Below, one piece after another: positions 7,771 through 49,116 of a stretch of 64,000 nucleotides of DNA (the first letter of the stretch is position 1; each line of letters begins with the position of its first letter). Source of the stretch: Swingsia samuiensis (GTDB lineage Bacteria; Pseudomonadota; Alphaproteobacteria; Acetobacterales; Acetobacteraceae); the NCBI RefSeq assembly GCF_006542355.1, contig NZ_CP038141.1, forward strand, positions 2,012,001 to 2,076,000. Reading direction: 5' to 3'. The notes under the pieces are model-generated. The model ran no database searches, was not told the DNA's origin, and saw only the letters and a list, made by a program, of their open reading frames with translations. The translations under genes were made by a program, and so were the position numbers.

Positions 7771-9180
7771 ATGAATAACATGCAGTCTCTAAATTCCGTA
7801 TTGAATTATGTTGATCAAAATTTAGATGTTTCTATTCAAAAATTATTTGAACTACTGCGTATCCCAAGCATATCAACGCAACCTATACATGCTGAAGACT
7901 GCCGTAAAGCAGCCAATTGGTTGAAAGAAGATTTGCAATCAATAGGTTTTAAGGCCAGTCTAAGGGAGGTTAAATGGGCTAAACCGGGCCACCCTATGGT
8001 GCTGGCTCATTCTGACCAATCCTCTGCAAAACCACATGTTTTGTTTTATGGACATTACGATGTTCAACCCACAGATCCTGATCATTTGTGGGGAACTCCG
8101 CCTTTTGACCCTGTTTTAAAAGAAAGCGTTTCTGGACATAAAGTAATTATTGCTCGTGGTGCGAGTGATGATAAAGGGCAGGTCATGACCTTTTTAGAGG
8201 CATGTCGTGCTTGGAAAGCAGTTAACGGTTCTTTACCTGTAAATGTGAGTATTCTTTTAGAAGGAGAAGAAGAAAGCGGTGGAGAGAACTTGCTCCCATT
8301 TCTAAAAGAAAATGCAGATGAGTTACTTTCAGATGTTGTATTGGTGTGTGATACAGCAATGGCCGATCGGGTAACACCCGGTATTACCACTTCATTACGT
8401 GGAATGGTAACACAAGAAGTAACTATCCAATGCGCTTCTCATGATTTGCATTCTGGAATTTATGGCAATGCTGCGGCTAATCCCATTGCTATTTTGTGTC
8501 ATATATTAGCATCTTTAAGAGATATTGATGGCCGTGTGACACTTCCTAATTTTTACGATGGCATTATCGAGCCTTCCTCAGAGACGAGAGATCAATGGAA
8601 GAAAATTTTTCCTAGTGACGAAAATTTATTATCTGAAGCAGGTTTGAGTGTTGCAGCAGGAGAAAAAGGATATACGGCGATAGAGCAAACATGGTGCCGT
8701 CCTAGCTGTGAGATTAACGGAATTTCTGGAGGATATGAGGGGGATGGTTTTAAGACGGTTTTACCCGCAAAAGCTTCTGCAAAAGTTTCATTCCGCTTAG
8801 TCCCCGGTCAGAACCCAGCATTAATTGAGAAATCTTTTAGAGACCACGTAACATCTTTACTCCCCAAAGATGCAAAAGTGGAGTTTAAGTCTTTTGGTGC
8901 ATCGGAGGGGTTTGCCGTATCTCGGGAAAGTAAATATTTAGCTCCAGCATTAAACGCTTTAACGGAAGAGTGGGGAGTAAAAGCTGCAACAATTGGATCA
9001 GGCGGTTCTATTCCTGTCGCTGGAGAAGTGAGAGAAGCTTTAGGGCTGGATACTTTGTTAATTGGGTTTGCCCAAGCAGATGATCGTATTCATTCACCTA
9101 ATGAGCAATATGGAGTAGAGTCTTTTCATAAGGGCATTCGCTCTTGGGTTCGTATTCTCGCAGCATTAGCAGAAGCTTAA
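7771..9180 (+). CDS. M20-family metallopeptidase (dipeptidase-like)
   Basis: A 469-residue zinc peptidase of the M20 family, which cleaves dipeptides or related amides in the cytoplasm. Metal ligands are visible in YGHYDVQP (His about 93), GASDDKGQ (bridging Asp about 131) and EGEEESGG (general base and ligand Glu about 164-165). The dimerisation insert and the final metal-binding His (RIHSPNE, near residue 435) are present, so the enzyme looks complete. It starts 8 bases after the glycosyltransferase and is followed closely by pdxA. Substrate cannot be read from the sequence. Confidence 0.88.
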
Positions 9181-45953: not shown

Positions 45954-46262
45954 TTAATGTGTTGTTTTTGGTGCTGTAGGGGAGGTGTTTGCTGGAGGCT
46001 GAGCCAGAATATCATGACCACTCACACCAGAAGAAGCGCCACGATTCAAGACAGCAAGCGTCAGGCAAAGCAACATAAAAATACCGGCCAAAACAGAGGT
46101 AGCTCGTGTCAGTAATGTTGCTGTGCCTCGGCCCGTCATAAAGGAACCCATACCTTGGCTGCTACCAATTCCAAGACCACCGCCTTCGCTACGCTGAATA
46201 AGAATCGTACCGATTAAGGCTAATGTGACCAATAAATTGAGAACGAGTAAGAAAGTGGTCAT
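45954..46262 (-). CDS. secG: Preprotein translocase subunit SecG
   Basis: Helper subunit of the SecYEG channel. The 102 residues have two membrane helices (about 4-22 and 52-72), the conserved LIQRSEGGGLGIG between them, and a Ser/Pro/Thr-rich tail. It follows tpiA by about 24 bases once the tpiA frame is corrected, and pyrG follows by 59 bases. Confidence 0.92.
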   Translation of the reverse strand: MTTFLLVLNLLVTLALIGTILIQRSEGGGLGIGSSQGMGSFMTGRGTATLLTRATSVLAGIFMLLCLTLAVLNRGASSGVSGHDILAQPPANTSPTAPKTTH

Positions 46263-46286
46263 GAACGATTGAGCCTGCGTAATAGT

Positions 46287-47059
46287 TTACGATGAAACTT
46301 GCTGGGAAGCACATTCTGCAATGCGTAAAAAGCTTTTCGCATCCAAGCTGGCACTTCCAACAAGTACTCCACCGACAGATCCTGTTGAAAAATTTCAGGA
46401 GCCTGAGAGGGAGTAACTGACCCGCCATACAATATTGGCATGCGAATGTCATCTATATTAAGCCGAGATTGTAATAATCCCTTGAGAAGAAAGAGAGTAC
46501 GAGAGAGTTCGGTATATGTTGGGGTAATGCCTGTTCCAATTGCCCAAACAGGTTCATATGCAATAATGCCATTGAAGTTTTCTGTTAATGAGCCATCTAT
46601 CTGACTAGCTAAAACAGTAGCAGCACGGCCTTCCTGACGCTCTTTGAGCGTTTCCCCAAAGCATACAATCGGCGTTAGGCCGGCTGATTTGGCCGTCCGT
46701 ATTTTACGACGGATCATAATATCTGTTTCGCCATGAGCTTGGCGACGTTCAGAGTGACCTAAAATAACATATTGTGCGCCAATATCGGCAAGCATCTCGG
46801 CTGAAATATCTCCTGTAAACGCCCCAGAAATATTTGTATGGCAGTTTTGCCCACCTATTTTGATAGTGGATGAAAGCCCCGCAGAATCTACAATCCCACG
46901 AACACGTTCGATTTGTGTGAAAGGCGGGCAAAGAATCATCTGAACATCGTCAGGAAGCGAAAGCGCGCCCTCAACAATTGCGGATGCAAGGTGGCTTGTC
47001 TCTTCTCTCAAGCCGAACATTTTCCAATTTCCAACAATATATTTTAATTCTTTAGTCAT
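46287..47059 (-). CDS. tpiA: Triosephosphate isomerase, with a frame change near the 3' end
   Basis: Interconverts dihydroxyacetone phosphate and glyceraldehyde 3-phosphate. From the ATG at 47059 the protein shows VGNWKMFG (Asn11, Lys13), VILGHSERR (catalytic His), AYEPVWAIGTG (catalytic Glu) and ILYGGSVTPSQAPEIF. After that the uninterrupted frame continues into unrelated sequence to 46259. The expected C-terminus (SVGGVLVGSASLDAKSF...) is present one frame back and ends with TAA at 46287-46289. The switch lies at an A5 run on the plus strand (46388-46392). The GG loop that binds phosphate would be lost without the frame change. It may be a sequencing slip or a real mutation. Confidence 0.85.
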
Positions 47060-47179: not shown

Positions 47180-49116
47180 ATGATTACACATCTACGTCAT
47201 TATCTTATTGATTCTTGGGTTGGGCGCGTGATCGCTCTTCTTGTCTTTTTTGCCTTTGTTGGCTGGGGAGCTGGAGATTATTTCTTTAGTGGCGATACGC
47301 CCAATGGAAATTCTATTATAAAAGTTGGTGATCGAAATATTTCTCCTAATGATTTTGCTCAAGCATTTTCAAGAGGATTACAAGCGCAAGCGCAGCAGAT
47401 GGGCCTTTCTGATCCATCTCGAATCCCAGCATCTACTAAGCACGAGATTGCCAGTATTGTGTTACACAATCTGGTGATTCAACGGGAAATTCAGCTGGCT
47501 GCTCAACGATCCAACATGGTTGTTCCTGATGAGTTGGTAAGAAAAGAAATTTTCTCTCTTCCTGTCTTTCATAATGCTGCAGGGCAATTTGATCGTTCTA
47601 AATTCAATGATACGTTAAGGCGTATTGGCCTTACGGAAGGGCGGTTTATCGCACTCATGCGTGAAGATATTAATTCACGTAGTTTGATGCAGGGAATGGG
47701 GTCCTCCGTTCAGGTTCCAAGCAGTTTAGTTAATCATCTGGTTGGATTTTATAGCCAGCAGCGTGTTGTGGATGTGGTTAGAATTCCATTCAGTGGAGAA
47801 ACTGTTGCTCAAAATCCAACAGAAGCGCAGTTGCATCGCTATTATGACAACCACCCACAAGATTTTCATGCTCCAGAGTACCGTCATGCAAAAATCGCTG
47901 TCATGACTTTAGAGAGTGTAGAAAAGACGATTGAAGTCCCAGATGACGTTTTACATAAATTATATGACTTCCAAGCACGAAACTATAATGTGCCAGAAAC
48001 ACGTAGTCTTCAGGTTTTAACATTTACTACTGAAAATGACGCTAAAAATGCAGCACAGAAATGGCATGATTCAAATGATTGGGAAGCTGTACAAAAAGTT
48101 TCCCTAATGCCGCAACAGTTTCTTTACCACATGTTCGTCAAACAGATGTGCCTAACCCTGAGCTTGCAAAAGCAGCGTTCTCAGCTTCTGCCCGTCAGGT
48201 TACAGGTCCTATCAAGACGTCGGCTGGTTGGGTTGTCTTTAACGTGAGTGATGTTGCTGCGCCACACCAAGTTACTTTTGATCAAGTGAAAGCGAGCCTG
48301 AAAGAACAAGTACAAAAGCAAGAAGCTCCTGAAGCGTTGCAGGCACGTCTTCATCAGTTTCAAGATGCTGTTGCTGGCTCTGGGAGTTTAGATAAAATTC
48401 CAGCTGATTTAGGGATTATTCCAGCTGCTGGATCATTAGATGCAAAGGGAATGACCCCCGATGGAATACCTGCTCCAATACCAGGAAGCATAGCCCTACG
48501 GCAGAGCATTATTCAGCATATTTTTGAGCAAAGCAAAGATGCTCAGCCTAGCGTTATTCAAGGGCCAGATGGAGCTGCTTTTGCTCTTTTAGTGGATGAT
48601 GTTCATCCAGGAGCCTCTCGCTCCTTTAATGATGTGCGTGAGCAAGTTCTACAAGGATGGAAAGCTGACCAGCAATTACATTCAGCAAATGTAAAAGCTA
48701 CCTCCTTTTTTACAGATGCTAAAAAAGCAACCTTGGCTAAAGCTCTTAATGGCAAGCCAGAAGAAGGCTTAATGCAGCACGGTTTGACATTATCTCGTCT
48801 CCATCCGGCCGGAAGTTTTCCTAAAAATGTTATGGAAGGAGCATTTTCTTTAAAGGTTGGGGAAACAGGTATGTATCAAACTCAAGAGGCTTTTTGGCTT
48901 CTTAACGTGGTGGGAGAAAAACCAGCGCTTGCGAGTGATGAGCAAACATTACACCATAATATAGAGGGCCAATCTTTAGAGGCGATGCAAGCTGATATTG
49001 CTCAAACATTGGATGCAAATTTAATGAAGGCTGTTCCTCCCTCACATATTAATGTGAAGCTTTATAATCAGGTTATTCAATCTGTATCCCCTGACGCAAA
49101 TGGAGGGGCGCAATAA
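47180..49116 (+). CDS. ppiD: PpiD/SurA-type peptidyl-prolyl isomerase, with a frame change
   Basis: A membrane-anchored periplasmic folding factor of about 645 residues once the frame is corrected. The N-terminal helix (VGRVIALLVFFAFVGWGAGDYFF) is followed by a SurA N-terminal-type domain and a parvulin-like domain. The first frame reads to EAVQK and then into unrelated sequence, stopping at 48247. One base back, the protein continues SFPNAATVSLPHVRQTD and runs to the stop at 49114-49116. The switch is at an A5 run near 48096-48101. One extra A would restore the reading. Its stop overlaps the trpE start (TAATG), so trp expression may be coupled to it. Confidence 0.8.

Follow-up and report, generated by a model that had tools for sequence, protein, structure and literature searches.

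Bacterial triosephosphate isomerases (TIM; PF00121/TIGR00419) carry a G-G pair in their phosphate-binding loop. The TpiA encoded in the window, by which we mean the whole 64,000-nucleotide stretch of the Swingsia samuiensis genome analyzed here, resembles these enzymes over residues 7-227 in its zero frame, while the remainder follows in the next frame. The zero-frame product is without the phosphate loop, and in the window's genus the loop itself has G-S or G-N in place of G-G.

Programmed -1 ribosomal frameshifting, as its features are generally understood, shares with this locus the -1 direction and an A/T-rich site. The locus differs from it in that a tandem slippery heptamer is absent, a stimulatory structure is not evident, and the shift is not conserved. 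A case from the same genus is the decayed tpiA of relative G010, which likewise lies between ppiD and secG and changes frame at the same T-rich spot. There, in contrast to the window, tpiA has mostly disappeared and what is left of it has decayed; the genome also keeps another TIM gene, and ppiD is intact.

Errors in long-read consensus sequences offer a further comparison. According to the accessible part of the Kastor study, deletion errors in a nanopore assembly occurred most often after runs of 4-5 identical bases, and most of all after A/T runs (PMC12007338). Compared with the deletions described in that portion of the text, tpiA and its neighbor ppiD are alike in lacking one base at or next to a short A/T run, in the fragmentation of the gene, and in the disagreement with relatives. 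They differ in that there are only two cases here, which are neighbors, and long-read finishing of this genome is our own presumption.

Results

Frame change in tpiA

The tpiA ORF scores 226 bits against PF00121, above the cut-off of 20.1, with the match confined to residues 7-227. The C-terminal phosphate-binding loop and the last helix are absent from the zero frame and occur only in the -1 frame, where the loop reads VGSASL. When TpiA proteins of relatives were used in tblastn, the frame switched at 46388/46391 in 19 of 20 relatives, and a MAFFT nucleotide alignment placed a one-base gap in the T5 run of the window against all 20 aligned relatives, at a position that may be off by a base or two. 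Together with the TIM profile match, these alignments confirm the -1 frame change at an A5/T5 run that an earlier note on this DNA had described. They also bear out its placement of the TpiA C-terminus one frame back, with a stop at 46287. Over its roughly 33 residues, the -1 segment shares 61-79% identity with the four relatives for which values are given, so the match is not a matter of chance. The loop itself, which the note had called a "GG" phosphate loop, is actually VGSASL or VGNASL in this genus, aligned to the VGGASL of a solved TIM.

We also examined the region as a possible pseudogene. Across 19 relatives (L131, which carries an insertion, was left out), mismatch by codon position in tpiA was 18/9/60% ahead of the break, compared with 23/15/72% from the break to the TAA. 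The codon-position pattern is kept to 46287, and constraint is not relaxed past the break. Since the segment beyond it diverges like coding sequence, the break at 46388 would be either recent or not real.

The TAA at 46289-46287 of the -1 frame lies 24 nt ahead of the secG ATG at 46262, a spacing that the earlier note took as normal but that is not the norm of the genus: in the 20 aligned relatives, the stop codon of tpiA and the start codon of secG overlap in the sequence ATGA. The nucleotide alignment contains a second one-base difference near 46286, opposite in direction to the T5 gap, and, counted from a shared Ser-Ser, the end of the stop lies 31 nt on in the window, compared with 30 nt in most relatives. 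This difference returned the zero-frame ORF to the ATGA overlapping secG and gave it a total of 266 aa, which is also the length of 13 of the 20 relatives' mechanical tpiA ORFs, the remaining ones being 264-294. In the tail, mismatch by codon position is 46/31/28% (19 relatives) and divergence is no longer of the coding type; this evidence is modest, as it comes from 30 nt and from relatives that are not independent. The stop at 46287 is apparently an older, harmless truncation that arose from the separate indel near 46286. In its wider setting, tpiA sits between divergent ppiD and secG, and the gene after secG is, judging from its sequence, CTP synthase-like.

Table 1. Features of the tpiA-ppiD region (positions in the window).
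Feature	Position	Strand	Remarks
tpiA zero-frame ORF	46259..47059	minus	266 aa; TIM-like to about residue 224-227, unrelated sequence beyond
Coding-strand T5 run (A5 on plus)	46388..46392	minus	frame-change site; one base fewer than in 20 aligned relatives
Conserved TpiA C-terminal segment, -1 frame	46287..46391	minus	ends with TAA 46289-46287
Tail matching the relatives' last 9 codons	46263..46290	minus	one base longer than in most relatives; zero frame ends on ATGA overlapping secG
secG	45954..46262	minus	ORF intact
ppiD first fragment (SurA-like N-terminal domain)	47180..48247	plus	relatives match this frame to about 48097-48100
A5 run at or beside the ppiD frame change	48093..48097	plus	window one base short against 19 aligned relatives
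ppiD second fragment	48094..49116	plus	-1 frame

Frame change in ppiD

The neighboring gene ppiD is broken as well, a twin break that the earlier note did not mention. Its two fragments both match the PRK10788 peptidylprolyl isomerase profile, at the successive positions 11-301 and 327-551. MAFFT sets a one-base gap just after the A5 run against 19 of 19 aligned relatives, although its exact place is uncertain. The two genes are adjacent and divergent, and each lacks one base at or next to a five-base A/T run, the two sites lying 1.7 kb apart. Both sites show the one-base difference from relatives, at or beside a run, that marks a homopolymer indel.

Comparison with relatives

At this locus, 24 of the 25 other same-genus genomes carry a full-length tpiA without a shift, and ppiD keeps its frame across the site in all 24 genomes that cover it (the count leaves out L114, where a contig end cuts the comparison off at residue 209, ahead of the site). 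Across these genomes, neither gene shows conservation of a programmed shift. The one exception for tpiA is G010 (L184, about 8291-8502), where the gene is, in its assembly, a decayed remnant of about residues 196-266 only. The remnant changes frame near residue 225, and ppiD and secG are intact on either side of it. Elsewhere G010 retains one TIM gene, which scores 139.2 bits against the TIGR00419 cut-off of 130.6. The remnant indicates that tpiA can be lost in the genus and that the T-rich spot may be a natural slip site, and it shifts the odds from consensus error towards real loss.

A search of relatives' contigs considered the best 80 of 490 relatives; all were 41-47% identical, so that no close species was added to the comparison. 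The window has a GC content of 43%, against 51-61% in the syntenic stretches of 20 relatives, and at 2.19 Mb its genome is smaller than the 25 same-genus genomes (2.4-3.6 Mb).

Search for further broken genes

We aligned proteins of relatives to the window's genome with a frameshift-aware method, used in place of a simpler HSP filter that had overlooked the short tpiA segment. The comparison comprised 258 rows, which represent no more than 256 distinct genes and cover about 87,300 aligned residues and about 260 kb. Flags were raised in 9 of 114 rows in one set and in 8 of 144 in the other. All flagged rows were inspected, and tpiA and ppiD were the sole broken genes found in these 258 rows. 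In the first set, three of the nine rows were tpiA and ppiD, the latter spanning two rows, in one of which three of the four flags lay upstream of the start codon used in the window; the six remaining rows reflected over-extended mechanical ORF starts, one gene boundary, and one stretch without a clear gene. In the second set, two genes that are intact here and frameshifted in relative G011 account for three of the eight rows, and the remaining five were start or boundary effects. In contig C1 of G011, three genes appear frameshifted (at about 2306806, 31.6 kb, and 58.3 kb) that are intact in the window's genome. By simple arithmetic, two random breaks would hit neighboring genes in about 1% of cases, and a local cause for the breaks in tpiA and ppiD is thus indicated.

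As a control, we used the syntenic stretch of about 20 kb, whose 17 genes are each present in 18-20 of the 20 relatives' stretches. In 328 gene comparisons, a single internal frame change was seen, in secG of L128; of the 35 control rows flagged, the other 34 were due to over-extended starts of two window ORFs. The L128 frame change (about 9247, relative G007) falls near residue 62 of secG, with the two halves recognizable in two frames.

Homopolymer runs and slippage signals

A/T runs of at least six bases number 137 in the window, against about 115 expected under a first-order Markov model, and are thus not depleted. Runs of at least nine number 0 against about 4 expected, too few to judge. 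General under-calling of homopolymers is therefore unsupported for runs of 6-8.

At the two sites, the zero-frame codons are GAA ATT TTT CAA in tpiA and GTA CAA AAA GTT in ppiD. No zero-frame X_XXY_YYZ heptamer was found in the tpiA ORF or in the first ppiD fragment. One 93-nt stretch per site folded no better than shuffled sequences, with z-scores of -0.40 and +0.78 under a model without pseudoknots. A/T runs exactly five bases long occur 269 times in the window, and no further shift-dependent gene came to light. Our literature search found no publication on a tpiA frameshift involving slippage.

Second TIM gene and metabolic context

A search for a second tpiA, as the earlier note had advised, has now been made: the sole match in the window's genome, which is rated 100% complete, is the broken tpiA. 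PF00365 phosphofructokinase likewise gave no match there. The accessible part of a study of Gluconobacter oxydans likewise reports no phosphofructokinase, together with two annotated tpi genes (PMC6191907).

A cell without phosphofructokinase should depend mainly on TIM for the DHAP that goes into its lipids. The window's genome has a gene with a glycerol-3-phosphate dehydrogenase C-domain. It also has a Dak1 dihydroxyacetone kinase gene, with a glycerol-kinase-like gene at a distance of about 2 kb (G000 C1 2099976-2104005, in L157); the latter scores below its family cut-off. The Dak1 and glycerol-kinase-like genes are a possible bypass for DHAP if TIM were lost.

Discussion

The earlier note had left three options for tpiA unranked. 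All three still stand, now in the order of a base-calling or consensus slip, a recent mutation, and, as a distant third, slippage. Two local homopolymer under-calls in the consensus, one in tpiA and one in ppiD, are the likely explanation, given that the broken genes are adjacent and the only ones found in about 260 kb, that nearly all same-genus relatives have them unshifted, that divergence past the tpiA break is of the coding type, and that this tpiA is the genome's sole TIM match. The cell would then have an intact tpiA encoding a triosephosphate isomerase of about 257 residues that ends at 46287, and the adjacent ppiD would be intact too. In each gene, one base would be missing from the deposited consensus at or next to a short A/T run, with the stretch probably locally poorly polished or thinly covered. 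On this reading, the reads would show longer runs, the genome would presumably have been finished with long reads, and the enzyme would be produced normally. The apparently older difference near 46286 suggests that indels arise naturally here, and we counted it against a consensus error, together with the G010 remnant and the undepleted A/T runs of six or more.

The assembled sequence itself speaks for the alternative of a real, recent one-base loss in tpiA, which would remove the phosphate-binding loop and the last helix, with ppiD hit separately. It would perhaps be an early stage of the loss completed in G010, with DHAP perhaps derived from dihydroxyacetone or glycerol; the G010 precedent, with its frame change at the same T-rich spot, and the Dak1 and glycerol-kinase-like genes (the second below its family cut-off) are consistent with this. 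Such a loss nevertheless requires hits in two adjacent genes with none elsewhere in the 260 kb or so compared, finds no relaxation of constraint past the tpiA break, and would leave the genome, unlike G010, with no other TIM gene. We regard it as unlikely, though worth serious consideration. Far more improbable is that the ribosome (or transcription) slips by -1 at the five-base runs, in a programmed or leaky way, and so yields full-length TpiA and PpiD from frameshifted genes. Re-pairing of a single codon could occur at both sites (TTT to TTT, AAA to AAA), and the downstream frames of both genes are conserved, but both sites lack a zero-frame heptamer, the one 93-nt stretch folded at each did no better than shuffles, relatives produce both proteins without a shift, and no other shift-dependent gene was found in a window with many five-base A/T runs. 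We accordingly give very little credence to the idea that tpiA and ppiD both rely on -1 slippage at a minimal A/T run, as a lineage-specific recoding without the classical heptamer.

Returning to the two under-calls, an organism with one TpiA and one PpiD probably appears in the consensus with the first broken and the second split. Such errors would mislead metabolic models and gene-loss surveys, and the importance of the finding lies mainly in quality control. If the five bases are real, this would be an acetic acid bacterium without an intact TIM and without PF00365 phosphofructokinase, which, taken with G010, would point to tpiA having been lost repeatedly in the genus.
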